The position numbers and the translations under genes were made by a program. A stretch of 64,000 nucleotides of DNA from an uncultured Bacteroidota bacterium. GTDB taxonomy: Bacteria > Bacteroidota > Bacteroidia > JABEUT01. The notes below the pieces were generated by a model. The model saw only the letters and a list, made by a program, of their open reading frames with translations, searched no databases and was not told the DNA's origin. Shown here piece after piece: positions 16,320 through 30,630 of this stretch. Within the stretch, counting starts at the first letter, position 1, and the number at the start of each line of letters is the position of its first letter. Where the stretch lies: the NCBI GenBank assembly GCA_903863935.1, contig CAIPDV010000046.1, forward strand, positions 1-64,000, read 5' to 3'.

Positions 16320-17018
16320 ATGAAAAAAATTATCCTTTCCCTTTTTGTTTTAGCTCTGGCGCATCAGTTTACAGTTGCCCAATGCAACCCTGCCATTCCA
16401 AATTCAGCTTACGTAATTAGCAGCACCCAAGCCATAGGCTTTGGTGGTTCCAACCTATGGGTTTGTAGTGGAGACACGCTTACTACCAATGGAGGAAGCA
16501 ATACAGTTTTTCTTGAAATAGGGGCATTCCTGTATGCAAATGGAGGAAGCAATTACGTTTATGTTCCCATAGGGGCGAAAATTGATCTTTCAAGCGGAAG
16601 TAATACGATTTATTATGTAGATACTACCGATATAATTAGTGCGGGCGGAGCACCAATTATCAATAAATGTGCTTCTATTGCATACGATTATACCAATGCC
16701 CCTGCAGGTGGTTGCACGTTTACTACCGGCATGGCTCATGTAAATGTTGAAAATACCGTTTCTGTTTATCCAAATCCCGGTAAAGGCATATTCACAATCA
16801 CGCTTAGGCACCCTGAACTTGTTTCATCCGCCGTGGCGGAGCAAACAACAATCATCGAAATTTATAATGTGCTTGGAGAGAAAGTCACTTTTGGGATGCT
16901 GAAACCAGTTCAGCATGACTATGAAGTTGACTTAAGTAACCAACCCAATGGAGTTTATATCATTAAAATATCTTCCGCTAAAGAAGTAATCACGCAAAAA
17001 ATTATTTTGGAGAAATAG
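16320..17018 (+). CDS. Secreted GGSN-repeat protein with T9SS sorting domain
   Basis: The 232-residue protein has a signal peptide (MKKIILSLFVLALAHQFTVA) and a middle region with short beta-helix-like repeats (GGSNLWVC, GGSNTVFL, GGSNYVYV, SGSNTIYY). The C-terminus is a type IX sorting domain (SVYPNPGKGIFTIT to KIILEK). The sorting domain contains two in-frame repeat arms: RHPELVS and LKPVQHDY are encoded by inverted copies of a palindromic repeat (16807-16826 and 16897-16919). The passenger role is unknown. Confidence 0.88.
   Translation: MKKIILSLFVLALAHQFTVAQCNPAIPNSAYVISSTQAIGFGGSNLWVCSGDTLTTNGGSNTVFLEIGAFLYANGGSNYVYVPIGAKIDLSSGSNTIYYVDTTDIISAGGAPIINKCASIAYDYTNAPAGGCTFTTGMAHVNVENTVSVYPNPGKGIFTITLRHPELVSSAVAEQTTIIEIYNVLGEKVTFGMLKPVQHDYEVDLSNQPNGVYIIKISSAKEVITQKIILEK
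16807..16919 (+). repeat. Inverted repeat arms inside a T9SS sorting domain
   Basis: The arms CACCCTGAACTTGTTTCA and TGCTGAAACCAGTTCAGC are inverted copies of one another with few mismatches. A second, smaller palindrome TCCGCCGTGGCGGA (16827-16840) abuts the left arm. The reading frame is kept through all of it. Confidence 0.75.
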
Positions 17019-17035
17019 GGTATTTCGGATTTATA

Positions 17036-17698
17036 ATGAAAAAAATCCTGACACATTTATTTCTCTTCCTTTCCCTCCTCTCCCTCATTAGTTGCAGCGT
17101 TACCAAACGCAAATACACAGGCGGGTTTTATGTGAGCTGGCATAAAAAAGTGCCAGAAGTACTTAGGCCTCACCCTACCCTCTCCTGCAAGGAGAGGGGA
17201 AAGTCACGACCTTACGATGATACATGTAAAATTGCACTTGGTGGAAAGCGAGATAAGCCTCTCTCGCCCGCTAATACTATAAGTAGGCCCTATAAAGAAA
17301 TCATAGCACAGCGGGTACATGAAAAAAACATTTCGAATAATCGAATTGCAACTACATATAAAGTAACACCAGAGAATTCAGTACCAGATCCTGATAAAAC
17401 TAAAAAAGATTCATCTGGATGGAAATTGGCATTATCTATTATTTTTTGTCTGCTTGGAATTTTAGGTGCAATTATTGTTGTAGGAATAGTCGCTTCAGCT
17501 CCATTTTTTACAGGTACCAGTTTACCATTGGCTAAAGGATTATCGTACGCTTTGTTGCCTCTAATGCTTTTATTTGCCTCCTTAATATTTGGCGATGCTG
17601 CTATGAAAAATGGACATAATAGGGGGTTGATTGTTTGTATGATTTTGGATTGTATATTATTCTTGGTTTTAGTTTTTAGTGTATTTTCATTAAAATAA
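17036..17698 (+). CDS. Membrane lipoprotein with KRKYTGGFYVSW motif, paralog 1
   Basis: The 220-residue protein has a lipoprotein signal (MKKILTHLFLFLSLLSLISC), followed by the SVTKRKYTGGFYVSWH segment common in Bacteroidota lipoproteins. A polar linker leads to three hydrophobic helices near the C-terminus (about 120-145, 160-180, 190-215). It is a paralog of the next gene. Part of the linker (RPHPTLSCKERGKS) comes from an in-frame repeat hairpin at 17168-17200. No function is known. Confidence 0.75.
   Translation: MKKILTHLFLFLSLLSLISCSVTKRKYTGGFYVSWHKKVPEVLRPHPTLSCKERGKSRPYDDTCKIALGGKRDKPLSPANTISRPYKEIIAQRVHEKNISNNRIATTYKVTPENSVPDPDKTKKDSSGWKLALSIIFCLLGILGAIIVVGIVASAPFFTGTSLPLAKGLSYALLPLMLLFASLIFGDAAMKNGHNRGLIVCMILDCILFLVLVFSVFSLK
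17168..17200 (+). repeat. CCTCACCC...GAGAGGGG repeat hairpin inside a gene
   Basis: CCCTCTCCT and AGGAGAGGG (9-base perfect arms, 3-base loop) with CCTCACCCTA upstream form a common Bacteroidota repeat. It lies in frame in the lipoprotein gene and has a partner in the paralog at 17831-17895. Confidence 0.75.
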
Positions 17699-17713
17699 AT
17701 AATTGCATTAATA

Positions 17714-18346
17714 TTGAAACCCTTTACCAAATTTCTCTTCTTATTTTCACTTCTATCCCTCGTTAGTTGTAGCGTTACCAAACGCAAATACACGAGAGGG
17801 TTTTATGTGAGCTGGCATAAAACAATTAGACCTCACCCCCGTCCGAACGATTCATCCGGGCGGACTGCCCGCTCTTATGAGGAGAGGGGAAAGTCAAGAT
17901 CTTACGAAACTCACCAAGTTGCAGTTAGCGGGCATGAAAAAGATAAACTTAACATTCCACAAAGCGCAGTTTCGCGGACACAAGTGCAACAAAAAGAAAT
18001 TCCCAAAAGCATTTCTTACAATAACATTACGGTATCAGCCACACAAAGCATTGCCGGTGGCACCAAGCATGTGGAGAGTGTTAAAGCCCGCAACCGCGAC
18101 AATGGCTTAACCGGTTTCGAAATTGGCCTACTGAATATTATAGCTGTGGCCTTGTTGATTTTTTTCGGGCATATTGGCTATGGAATTTTTGTGCTTGGTA
18201 TGTTCCTGATTTTCCTGTTCCTGTTTATCTCTGGCTTGATATATAGTTTCATGGGCCTCAACCGGCAAGACAAACACCGTGGATTAGCCCTGCTTGGCAT
18301 ATTGATTGAAGCAGTAGTACTTTATGCTCTTACAAGGTTTGCTTAA
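17714..18346 (+). CDS. Membrane lipoprotein with KRKYTRGFYVSW motif, paralog 2
   Basis: This 210-residue paralog of the preceding gene starts at TTG 17714, 15 bases after it, because no ATG precedes the signal MKPFTKFLFLFSLLSLVSC. The SVTKRKYTRGFYVSWH motif follows the lipobox. Two to three hydrophobic helices fill the C-terminal half. The linker is again built from repeat DNA: RPHPRPNDSSGRTARSYEER is encoded by the CCTCACCCC repeat with a second palindrome set into it (17838-17863). Function unknown. Confidence 0.7.
   Translation: MKPFTKFLFLFSLLSLVSCSVTKRKYTRGFYVSWHKTIRPHPRPNDSSGRTARSYEERGKSRSYETHQVAVSGHEKDKLNIPQSAVSRTQVQQKEIPKSISYNNITVSATQSIAGGTKHVESVKARNRDNGLTGFEIGLLNIIAVALLIFFGHIGYGIFVLGMFLIFLFLFISGLIYSFMGLNRQDKHRGLALLGILIEAVVLYALTRFA
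17831..17895 (+). repeat. Composite repeat inside lipoprotein paralog 2
   Basis: CCTCACCCC and GAGGAGAGGGGAAAGTCA match the repeat of paralog 1, but between them lies a 26-base palindrome-like unit (CGTCCGAACGATTC...CCGGGCGG, 17838-17863). The same 26 bases occur reversed at 22949-22975. Confidence 0.8.
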
Positions 18347-18380
18347 ATTGTGGAAAGATTATACGCAAATAAATTAAAGG

Positions 18381-18388
18381 GCTAAAGC
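18381..18388 (+). repeat. Left 8-bp target duplication GCTAAAGC
   Basis: GCTAAAGC directly flanks the left terminal inverted repeat and is repeated in the same orientation after the right one (19911-19918). Confidence 0.85.
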
Positions 18389-18416
18389 GGTAACTATATA
18401 TCTGTCCGACCACGAA
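18389..18416 (+). repeat. Left terminal inverted repeat, 28 bp
   Basis: It starts GGTAACTATATATCTG and is identical to the reverse complement of 19883-19910. A related motif, TGTAACTATATAGCAG, follows at 18421-18436 as a possible subterminal transposase site. Confidence 0.9.
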
Positions 18417-19882: not shown

Positions 19883-19910
19883 TTCGTGGTCGGACAGATA
19901 TATAGTTACC
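19883..19910 (-). repeat. Right terminal inverted repeat, 28 bp
   Basis: It is the exact reverse complement of 18389-18416. The direct repeat GCTAAAGC follows at 19911-19918. Confidence 0.9.
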
Positions 19911-20066
19911 GCTAAAGCCCTTCCTGAAATGTAGGTATTTTTCACCCCGCCATAAATGGCGGGGCTAATGAATGAACTCCTGCTCAAATGTTTTTCATTC
20001 ATTAGCCACGGCTTTTAAGCCGTGGACAGGATGGAGAATCCTAAGTTCTGAGGGCTTTAGCCCTTA
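19911..20066. repeat. REP-type composite repeat with TAAA-loop hairpins
   Basis: The stretch holds CCCCGCCATAAATGGCGGGG (19945-19964), inverted CTAATGAATG/CATTCATTAG (19965-19974, 19996-20005) and CCACGGCTTTTAAGCCGTGG (20006-20025), and ends in GAGGGCTTTAGCCCTT (20050-20065). Removing the 1522-bp element restores AAGGGCTAAAGCCCTT at the left side, giving a symmetrical unit. No gene is seen between 19803 and 20156. Confidence 0.75.
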
Positions 20067-22927: not shown

Positions 22928-23015
22928 GTCATTCTGAGTGCAGCGAAGCCCGCCCGGATGAATCGTTCGGACGGGAATCTGGGCTAAAACAGATCCTTCC
23001 TACGTCAGGATGACA
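22928..23015. repeat. Composite repeat GTCATTCTGAG...CAGGATGAC with inserted palindrome
   Basis: GTCATTCTGAGTGCAGCGAAG (21 bases spanning 22928-22948, reported here as the left end) and CCTACGTCAGGATGACA (right end) enclose a 27-base palindrome (22949-22975) identical, reversed, to one inside the lipoprotein gene at 17838-17863. The host repeat is of the kind common in Bacteroidota intergenic regions. Confidence 0.75.
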
Positions 23016-23489: not shown

Positions 23490-24089
23490 TTACTTAGCTG
23501 CATCAAAACGCTTTGCAACCTCATCCCAGTTAACTACATTCCAGAAAGCTGCAATGTAATCAGGTCTGCGGTTTTGGTATTTGAGGTAATAAGCGTGTTC
23601 CCAAACATCCATTCCGAGGATAGGAGTTCCTTTGCATTCTGAAATATCCATTAAAGGATTATCCTGATTAGGAGTTGAGCAAACGGCCAATTTACCATCG
23701 CTACTACAAAGCCATGCCCAGCCTGAGCCAAAACGGGTAGCACCTGCTTCTGCAAATTTGGTTTTGAAATCGGCAAATGTGCCAAACGCACTATTGATAG
23801 CCTCAGCAAGTTTTCCGGTAGGTTCTCCACCGCCGTTAGGTTTCATAATGGTCCAGAAAAGGCTATGGTTAAAATGTCCGCCGCCATTATTTCTAACAGC
23901 CATCGGATATTTTGAAATGTTCTTGCAAATTTCTTCAATGCTCTCTTCAGGCTTGCCTTCTAAAGCTTTGCTAAGATTGGTTACATACGCATTGTGATGC
24001 TTGCTATGGTGAATTTCCATAGTTTGTGCATCAATGTGCGGCTCGAGTGCGTTGTACGCGTATGGGAGTTGTGGAAGTGTGAATGCCAT
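23490..24089 (-). CDS. Superoxide dismutase, Fe/Mn type
   Basis: The enzyme dismutes superoxide to oxygen and peroxide. The 199-residue cytoplasmic protein has the metal ligands in [13 protein letters not shown] (first His pair), NHSLFWTIM, and [28 protein letters not shown] is the usual glycine-rich loop. The metal (Fe, Mn or either) cannot be decided by eye. No signal peptide is present. Confidence 0.95.
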
Positions 24090-28088: not shown

Positions 28089-28249
28089 AATTAGGCTAAA
28101 GCCAAAATATAGTTCACTTTTTTATCCACGACCTAAAGGTCGTGGCAATTGCAAACTCTTTCCAATATTGAGTGGGGGCTGTTTTAGTTGCCACGACCTT
28201 TAGGTCGTGGATAGATTGACCTCCAGAATTTTGGCTTTAGCCTAAATTC
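28089..28249. repeat. REP pair (BIME) upstream of the RAYT gene
   Basis: Two hairpins CCACGACCTAAAGGTCGTGG (28126-28145 and, inverted, 28191-28210) are flanked by TTAGGCTAAAGCCAAAAT and its inverted copy. The whole unit is symmetric, as in bacterial interspersed mosaic elements. The gap between the ligase gene and the transposase holds nothing else except the promoter at 28267. Confidence 0.88.
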
Positions 28250-28266
28250 ATCCTAATGAATTTATT

Positions 28267-28274
28267 TATCTTTG
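28267..28274 (+). promoter_or_regulatory. Promoter -7 box of the RAYT gene
   Basis: TATCTTTG matches TAnnTTTG, 22 bases before the ATG. Confidence 0.55.
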
Positions 28275-28296
28275 CTATAATTATAACCTACTTATC

Positions 28297-28725
28297 ATGC
28301 CTTATTGCAAACTAATGGTTCATGCCATTTGGTCCACCAAAAATCGTAACCCAATTATTGGGAAAGAGCTGAAACCACTTTTATTGCAACATATAAAGGA
28401 AAATAGTTTCAAAAAATATATACATATTGATTCTCTTGAATGTGTTTCAAACCATATTCATTTGCTTATATCTCTTGGAGCAGACCAAACAATTGCAAAG
28501 ACAATAGGATTGATAAAAGGCGAGTCATCAAATTGGGTTAATAAGCAAAGTTTTAGTCGCGTAAAATTTGAATGGCAGGAAGAATATATAGCTATTTCTG
28601 TAAGCCCCTCAGTAATTGATAAAGTTCGTGTTTATATTTCGAGACAAGAGGAGCACCATAAAAAGAAAACTTTTGCAGATGAATATGATGAGTTTATTAA
28701 GGCAAGCGGTATTGTGTTAGGCTAA
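28297..28725 (+). CDS. REP-associated tyrosine transposase (Y1/IS200-like)
   Basis: The 142-residue protein is a full-length Y1 transposase domain: the HUH motif in VSNHIHLLISL, EWQEEYIAISVS, and the catalytic tyrosine in VYISRQEEHHKKKTF with the closing ADEYDEFI. Such domesticated relatives of TnpA handle single-stranded hairpins of REP elements. Four REP hairpins in two mirrored pairs flank the gene, the arrangement of a REPtron. Its own stop codon lies in the outer arm of the downstream REP unit, so gene and repeats have moved or evolved together. Confidence 0.92.
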   Translation: MPYCKLMVHAIWSTKNRNPIIGKELKPLLLQHIKENSFKKYIHIDSLECVSNHIHLLISLGADQTIAKTIGLIKGESSNWVNKQSFSRVKFEWQEEYIAISVSPSVIDKVRVYISRQEEHHKKKTFADEYDEFIKASGIVLG

Positions 28726-28935
28726 AGCCAGAGCATTTGGGCTTATCAATCCACGACCTAAAGGTCGTGGCAACTAAAACAGCCAAAGTTCGATTTCAAA
28801 AGGAAGTCCTAATTGCCACGACCTTTAGGTCGTGGATTAGAATAAAAAAGGAAATTGGCTTTAGCCTAACAATTTTCTTTTAGGCCAAAGCTAATACAAA
28901 GGGGTTTGGCTATCCACGACCTAAAGGTCGTGGCA
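28716..28935. repeat. REP cluster downstream of the RAYT gene
   Basis: Hairpins CCACGACCTAAAGGTCGTGG occur at 28751-28770, inverted at 28816-28835, and again at 28914-28933. The outer arms TTAGGCTAAAGCC (from 28718) and GGCTTTAGCCTAA (about 28856-28869) close the first pair. No gene lies in this stretch. Confidence 0.88.
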
Positions 28936-28949
28936 ACTATAATGCAAGG

Positions 28950-29340: not shown

Positions 29341-30630
29341 TTAAACCCCGCTCACCCACCCTAACCTGTCACTCGCAGGGAACTGCCAGGGAGCGCCGTT
29401 GTTCTCAATATTGTTGAGCATCATCGCCAACTCTTGCGGTGCAGCTGATTGCTCCATTACGAGGAAACGGCGTATGTCTACAATAATAGAAAGTGGGTCA
29501 ATATTTACAGGGCATTCCTGTACACAGGCATTGCAAGATGTGCATGCCCAAACCTCTTCCGGAAGAATATAATTGCCGAGAAGTGATTTTCCGTCATCAA
29601 CAAATTTTCCATTTTTTGCTATATTCTTTCCCACCTCTTCCAACCTGTCCCGGGTGTCCATCATTATTTTGCGCGGAGAAAGAAGTTTGCCGGTTTGGTT
29701 GGCCGGGCAGCTCGAGGTACATCGTCCACATTCGGTGCAGGAGTAAGCATTCATTAACTGATGGCGCGATAAATCAAAAACATCCTTGGCTCCGAAACGC
29801 TCCGGCGGGGCAGCATTGGCAGTATCAGGAGGAACGCTTGATGGGTCCAGCATCAGCTTGATTTCTTTCGTAACCGAGGCGAGATTTGTAAACTCTCCTT
29901 TGGGTTTCAGGTTTGAATAATATACATTCGGGAATGCAAGCAGAATATGGAAATGCTTGGAATAGGGTACATAATTTAAAAAAGCAAGGATGCCAATTAT
30001 GTGAAACCACCAACAGAAATGTTCTATGAATTCAAGGGTTGGAATGGAGCAGCCATTAAGCATTGGTACTAAGAAATTGCTTACCGGAAATCCTTTAACA
30101 TTGCGCATAAGAATAGTATCGGAAGCATCCAGAAAAAGGAAAGCAGTCATTAAAGCTATTTCTGTAATGAGGATAATATTTGCGTCGGACCTTGGCCAGG
30201 TTGTCATTTCTCTTGACCAAAACCGTTTTAATTTGGCAACATTCCTTCTCAATAAAAAAATGGCACAGGAAATCCATACAGCTACCGCTAAAAATTCAAA
30301 TGAAGTAATAAGAAAAGTGTAAAAAGAACCCAGGAATGAGAAGATACGATGCGTCCCCATCACACCATCAATAAGGATTTCGAGAACTTCGATATTGATG
30401 ATGATGAAACCGACGTAAACAAAAATATGGAGTATACCCGCAAATGGACGCTTCACCATTTTACTTTGCCCTATGGCAACCATGAACATAGTTTTCCATC
30501 TTTCGGCAGAATCGCCTGTAACCTCAAAAGGCTTGCCCAGCTTAATATTGCTTGTTATCCTGCGGATGGCAAGTGTAAACGATACAATCGCGACGACTAA
30601 TACAATTATGAATATGATTTGTGCTATCAT
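29341..30630 (-). CDS. Membrane Fe-S oxidoreductase (heterodisulfide reductase-like)
   Basis: The 429-residue protein has five to six N-terminal helices resembling nitrate reductase gamma/HdrE cytochrome domains, then a soluble region with two 4Fe-4S motifs, CTECGRCTSSCP and CTSCNACVQECP. This layout passes electrons between the membrane quinone pool and a soluble partner. Substrate and partner are unknown. It lies 11 bases after the MCE gene, so the two are cotranscribed. Confidence 0.88.
   Translation of the reverse strand: MIAQIIFIIVLVVAIVSFTLAIRRITSNIKLGKPFEVTGDSAERWKTMFMVAIGQSKMVKRPFAGILHIFVYVGFIIINIEVLEILIDGVMGTHRIFSFLGSFYTFLITSFEFLAVAVWISCAIFLLRRNVAKLKRFWSREMTTWPRSDANIILITEIALMTAFLFLDASDTILMRNVKGFPVSNFLVPMLNGCSIPTLEFIEHFCWWFHIIGILAFLNYVPYSKHFHILLAFPNVYYSNLKPKGEFTNLASVTKEIKLMLDPSSVPPDTANAAPPERFGAKDVFDLSRHQLMNAYSCTECGRCTSSCPANQTGKLLSPRKIMMDTRDRLEEVGKNIAKNGKFVDDGKSLLGNYILPEEVWACTSCNACVQECPVNIDPLSIIVDIRRFLVMEQSAAPQELAMMLNNIENNGAPWQFPASDRLGWVSGV

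Follow-up and report, generated by a model that had tools for sequence, protein, structure and literature searches.

The window analysed here, a stretch of 64,000 nt taken at its full length, belongs to contig 46 of a 3.76 Mb metagenome-assembled genome (MAG) of a member of the Bacteroidota, as judged from its T9SS sorting domains and from the organisms that carry the palindrome described below. It harbours two tandem genes for lipobox proteins, P1 and P2, each of which contains a copy of a dispersed repeat:

17036–17698, plus strand: lipoprotein paralog 1 (P1), 220 aa, taken from the list of open reading frames and having homologs in a congener.
17714–18346, plus strand: lipoprotein paralog 2 (P2), 210 aa, with a TTG start and a frame that is open throughout.
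17166–17206, plus strand: copy in P1 of a dispersed stem-loop repeat, CCTCACCC..GAGAGGGG, which is translated as RPHPTLSCKERGKS; the same element is found elsewhere in the genome.
17828–17896, plus strand: the CCTCACCC..GAGAGGGG repeat in P2, broken by a 27-nt palindrome.

In P1, the lipobox is followed by the KRKYTGGFYVSWHK motif, a variable linker and C-terminal membrane helices. Searches of Pfam and NCBIfam revealed no real family for either lipoprotein, and a search for related loci in a set of genome contigs with P1 as the query returned no relatives. Two homologs of P1, both free of the repeat, are present in the congener G005. The core of the P1 repeat, CCTCACCCTACCCTCTCCTGCAAGGAGAGGGG, occupies positions 17168–17199, and that of P2, CCTCACC..(insert)..CTGCCCGCTCTTATGAGGAGAGGGG, positions 17830–17889; both lie directly 3' of SWHK and share one reading frame (RPHP...ERGKS), which confirms the claim of the first-pass annotation that the two paralogs carry the repeat in the same place after WHK. 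The comparison with orthologs proposed there was also carried out: the homologs of the congener are devoid of the repeat, and no conserved protein sequence extends across the segment. Moreover, both segments consist of dispersed-repeat DNA and the linker is tolerant, in keeping with the earlier view that repeat DNA spreads within coding sequence at such a linker. Other repeats are located in the vicinity of the two genes. The T9SS protein encoded upstream (16320–17018) has an in-frame CACCCTGAACTTGTTTCA..TGCTGAAACCAGTTCAGCATGAC inverted repeat in its sorting domain (16800–16920; HPELVS..LKPVQHD), and two genes are flanked by a 40-nt inverted repeat pair (18377–18416 and 19883–19922, 95%; AAGGGCTAAAGCGGTAACTATATATCTGTCCGACCACGAA).

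The outer repeat is ∼42 nt long and has the consensus GACCTCACCCTRCCCTCTCCTnnnAGGAGAGGGaAAAGTCA. About a dozen copies, most of them intergenic, were found in this genome, and the element is rare in congeners; copies with a perfect stem number 10, vs 0 for the reversed control. The copy in P1 folds as a stable DNA hairpin (z −3.3). In the case of P2, deletion of the 27 nt at 17838–17864 gives back CCTCACCCTGCCC, to which the copies of the repeat in the genome conform, and the insert is therefore 27 nt (nine codons) long. The first-pass annotation had described a 26-base palindrome set in frame into the second copy; its nested and in-frame position holds, whereas its length has to be corrected. 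Two copies of the palindrome are present in the window:

17838–17864, plus strand: the palindrome CCCGTCCGAACGATTCATCCGGGCGGA (27 nt), which lies inside the repeat of P2 and encodes RPNDSSGRT in frame.
22949–22975, minus strand: second copy of the 27-nt palindrome, intergenic and set into another kind of repeat (GTCATTCTGAG..GCGAAG, interrupted before AATCTG).

The general form of the palindrome is CCCGTCCGAACGRTTCATCCGGGCGGG, and its recurrence in the genome greatly exceeds chance: with up to three mismatches allowed, a search with the 23-nt core yielded 18 genomic matches vs 0 for the reversed control. Listing of these copies, as had been suggested, placed 8 of the 18 inside reading frames. 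Among the 119 genomes searched, the core was detected in this genome (18 copies), G005 (10), G010 (3) and G002 (2), and in none of the other genomes of the same genus or the ∼108 more distant relatives. The exact 27-mer occurs in 31 stretches among ∼85,000 species genomes, mostly those of Chitinophagaceae and other Bacteroidota; among the Chitinophagaceae, the carriers include Niastella, Niabella, Agriterribacter and Ferruginibacter. Further carriers are MAGs of other Bacteroidota, as well as three MAG contigs of CPR (Patescibacteria), which could be misbinned. When 58 distinct copies were aligned, the 27 bases proved to be nearly invariant save for a central G/A, with the stem reading CCCGTCC..GGGCGGG and the flanks varying. 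The base 3' of the palindrome is C in 57 of the 58 copies, a following C having been required for those retrieved with the GGGC-ending pattern and not for the remaining ones. The hairpin is modestly stable (DNA z −1.4). A looser search brought up sister palindrome families of equal length in the same genome, CCCGCCTGAACGGCTCAGTCGGGCAGG being one example. Phrase searches of the literature, in which most subscription papers were beyond reach, found no description of the palindrome in Bacteroidota.

The 27 nt are inserted precisely, and four empty sites demonstrate this. The cysteine desulfurase of this genome, of which a single copy was found, reads KLKEN[ARPDESFGR]GHIDL, while its counterparts in eight congeners are devoid of exactly those nine residues (KEN-GHI and alike), the difference at the DNA level being exactly 27 nt. 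In the AlphaFold model of the inserted enzyme, which has a modest pLDDT of 66, residues 125–129 appear as a coil, modelled with low confidence, that links a strand to a helix. In the window itself, sites that are filled elsewhere were found empty:

29599–29619, minus strand: empty site in the gene for an Fe-S oxidoreductase (29341–30630), between KNIAKN and GKFVDD.
23688–23714, minus strand: empty site in the gene for superoxide dismutase (SOD; 23490–24089), between WLCSSD and GKL.

The filled Fe-S oxidoreductase is that of G005 (KNIAKN[ARPDEPFGR]GKFVDD), the empty ortholog of the window having KNIAKNGKFVDD. The filled SOD is encoded by a Sphingobacteriaceae MAG (WLIVQD[ARPDEPFGR]GKL), and its insert corresponds to exactly a nine-residue gap when compared with solved SOD structures. 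In addition, a contig of G005 (L071, 35–700) bears an intact tRNA-Arg(CCG) between two copies that have the palindrome in the D-loop; in the predicted RNA fold of one inserted tRNA-Arg, the acceptor, D, anticodon and T stems are kept and the insert forms a separate hairpin. One of these two D-loop-inserted copies has a different 3' end. Duplication of the target at the empty sites amounts to at most one ambiguous nucleotide. One intergenic copy (L061), with a net difference of 26 nt from its presumed empty site, speaks against a uniform 27-nt insertion. The inserted proteins and tRNAs may still be functional.

Further in-frame palindromes were identified in RecN, a phosphoglucose isomerase-like family protein, a GT9 glycosyltransferase, four T9SS sorting domains and ribulose-phosphate epimerase. 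The CPR MAG contigs L093 and L085 contain the exact palindrome in frame (at the end of what we take, from its sequence, to be topoisomerase I, and in the ribulose-phosphate epimerase), and a sister palindrome (ARLNESVGQA) is located just upstream of the exact copy on L093. The palindrome is stop-free in five of the six frames. The idea that this openness is a selected trait was rejected, since 27-mers shuffled at constant composition are equally open in 83% of cases and the property is thus to be expected from base composition. Two frames, RPNGSSGR and ARPDEPFGR, account for 12 of the 14 confirmed insertions into coding sequence (p 0.0006 if all five frames were used equally), a bias that is consistent with the survival of tolerated hydrophilic loops. 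A 24-nt palindrome (CCTGCCCGAACTGGTACAGGCGGG) occurs at a single site in five T9SS sorting domains of this genome. The domains L105–L109 contain an in-frame GATCCTTCGCTC..CTCAG repeat (KQILRSAQ..DDKVIDL) into which the 24-nt palindrome is set, always at one and the same position; the palindromic repeat thus belongs to a domain that the secretion machinery reads.

Nesting is common among the copies of the 27-nt palindrome: 11 of the 18 in this genome sit within other dispersed repeats, and at least five occupy the identical point (between GCGAAG and CAATCT) in a repeat recognisable by its GTCATTGCGAGG mark, of which 69 instances, covering <0.2% of the genome, were counted. Such recurrent nestings may reflect either a target preference or the spread of a composite unit. 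In the genome nzgw126 (L103), the palindrome is again found within a CCTCACCC..GAGAGGGG-type repeat. Nesting reportedly occurs in the small dispersed repeats of cyanobacteria.

As to the order of events at the lipoprotein locus, the palindrome interrupts the outer repeat of P2 and is the younger of the two, just as the first-pass annotation had it in placing the nested insertion last. Of the preceding steps that it named, the order of repeat first and gene duplication afterwards finds no support. In a small tree of these fast-diverging proteins, constructed after removal of the repeat-derived residues, P1 clusters with the two repeat-free genes of G005 (support 94/95) and P2 is left outside, hence the duplication would seem to predate the repeat. 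It is quite possible, if somewhat short of probable, that the repeat was inserted once and copied to the neighbouring gene by conversion of the 5' end, after which the palindrome entered P2 only. The repeat has the same position and frame in both paralogs, the congener genes nearest to P1 lack it, and the third bases of shared P1/P2 codons match at 19 of 25 positions in the N-terminal block vs 12 of 32 in the rest (Fisher p = 0.007), an unusual likeness which makes gene conversion possible. However, the conserved lipobox motif might itself slow divergence, and the spacing 5' of the repeat differs by 12 nt between the paralogs.

The two repeats, moreover, differ at 9 of 46 sites, whereas that of P1 differs from the genomic copy L013 at 4 of 46, so that two insertions are possible too. 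Independent arrival of the repeat in two old paralogs, at the tolerant linker that they share, is also in line with the behaviour of other genes of this genome, such as those for T9SS sorting domains, which accept repeats at fixed tolerant sites; we nevertheless regard it with some doubt, since the same site, orientation and frame would be required twice. The GGGG that follows the stem in both copies was considered as proof of their common descent and rejected, as other copies also have G there. Insertion into a single ancestral gene, followed by gene duplication and then by the nested palindrome, would account for the common position and frame and for some homologous linker sequence 3' of the repeat, but it seems unlikely given the placement of P1 in the tree, and beyond the 5' block the likeness of P1 to P2 (36%) is no higher than that of P1 to the G005 genes (44%). 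Finally, the notion that the lipoprotein segments represent normal coding DNA kept by selection, with incidental palindromy, is practically untenable: the frames are open, and the two that prevail among the coding insertions are the most hydrophilic-looking ones, as expected if selection acts on tolerated peptides, but the same DNA is also found between genes, within tRNA genes and in both orientations, and the empty orthologs are entirely without the insert, so that empty sites and non-coding copies already refute it.

Taken as a whole, the locus is thus very probably best explained by mobile short-repeat DNA that lies within a tolerant linker in two layers, the inner layer being a precisely inserting 27-nt palindrome. 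The palindrome usually inserts directly 5' of a C, with a visible target duplication of no more than one ambiguous base. Because it comprises nine codons and is stop-free in five frames, a protein gene that receives it gains nine residues without a shift of frame, and in an RNA gene it would constitute an added self-contained hairpin. It may be a non-autonomous hairpin element moved in trans by a putative enzyme, the first guess for which would be a single-strand HUH/Y1 transposase, and is presumably neutral or selfish, and would survive within genes only at sites that the host can tolerate. Profile matches revealed seven Y1_Tnp genes in this genome. A Y1 gene flanked by the palindrome was sought and rejected as a candidate, none of the seven having a copy at its ends, and the one Y1 gene tested against NCBIfam REP_Tyr scored below the cut-off. 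An IS200-like Y1 transposase gene (28297–28725) is situated amid five CCACGACCT..AGGTCGTGG palindromes (window 28118–28942) in a REPtron-like arrangement.

Comparison with known systems brings to mind, first of all, the Rickettsia palindromic elements (RPE), short palindromic repeats present in frame, and apparently tolerated, in many unrelated conserved proteins and also in RNA genes such as those for tmRNA and RNase P RNA (PMC2229807). The 27-nt palindrome likewise lies in frame in several unrelated genes (IscS/NifS, Fe-S protein, RecN, SOD, Rpe, GT9, T9SS). However, classical RPE are 105–146 bp long and Rickettsia-specific (Ogata et al. 2000, reviewed in PMC2229807), whereas the element described here measures 27 nt, resides in Bacteroidota and on CPR MAG contigs, is found in tRNA D-loops, is often nested in other repeats and displays no visible sequence kinship to them. 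The GTAG/CGTC REPs (including RPE-4 and RPE-6) are dispersed hairpins of 20–40 bp, some of them within repair and housekeeping genes; they carry an unpaired terminal tetranucleotide tag and are mostly intergenic and mostly arranged as head-to-head dimers (PMC3733652). In contrast, the palindrome has no unpaired terminal tag, its CGTC being paired in the stem, and its copies are single, lie in reading frames in 8 of 18 cases and do not flank a transposase gene. It is the GTCATTGCGAGG repeat, often invaded by the palindrome, that resembles CGTC elements.

REPINs are REP doublets linked to RAYT; they consist of non-autonomous hairpin DNA for whose movement Y1 transposases are held responsible, if tentatively (PMC3116915). 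The seven Y1 transposase genes of this genome are reminiscent of that system, but the copies of the palindrome are singlets without a linked RAYT and do not flank a cognate gene. Nor does the element look like a MITE, for which terminal inverted repeats and a multi-base target site duplication are typical: it is one inverted repeat with a duplication of at most 1 nt. The cyanobacterial small dispersed repeats (SDR; Elhai et al. 2008), as cited in PMC3116915 and PMC2884548, are ∼20–27 nt long and apparently mobile; the palindrome is similar in size and differs in phylum and presumably in sequence. In summary, the palindrome does not correspond to the full definition of any family tested (RPE, GTAG/CGTC REP, REPIN/RAYT, MITE) and works like RPEs and intragenic REPs. 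It is filed here with a known kind, the tiny mobile palindromes able to become coding.

The in-frame spread of palindromes was first described for Rickettsia (and Wolbachia) and was later extended to some REPs. Here, a much smaller, nine-codon element does likewise in members of the Bacteroidota, and clean empty sites are available for conserved enzymes as well as for a tRNA. We propose, with more reserve than confidence, that a family of 27-nt mobile palindromes (with variants such as the sister family named above) spreads within and between bacterial phyla by single-strand hairpin insertion, entering conserved protein genes, tRNA D-loops and repeats cleanly and thereby acting as a portable donor of nine-residue loops to evolving proteins. 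Owing to the clean empty sites, three questions can be put to the test: the agent that moves a hairpin of 27 nt, the neutrality of the loops and the frequency with which peptides are donated to proteins in this way. A word of caution is also in order: an indel seen in a conserved alignment may have arisen by insertion of a repeat.
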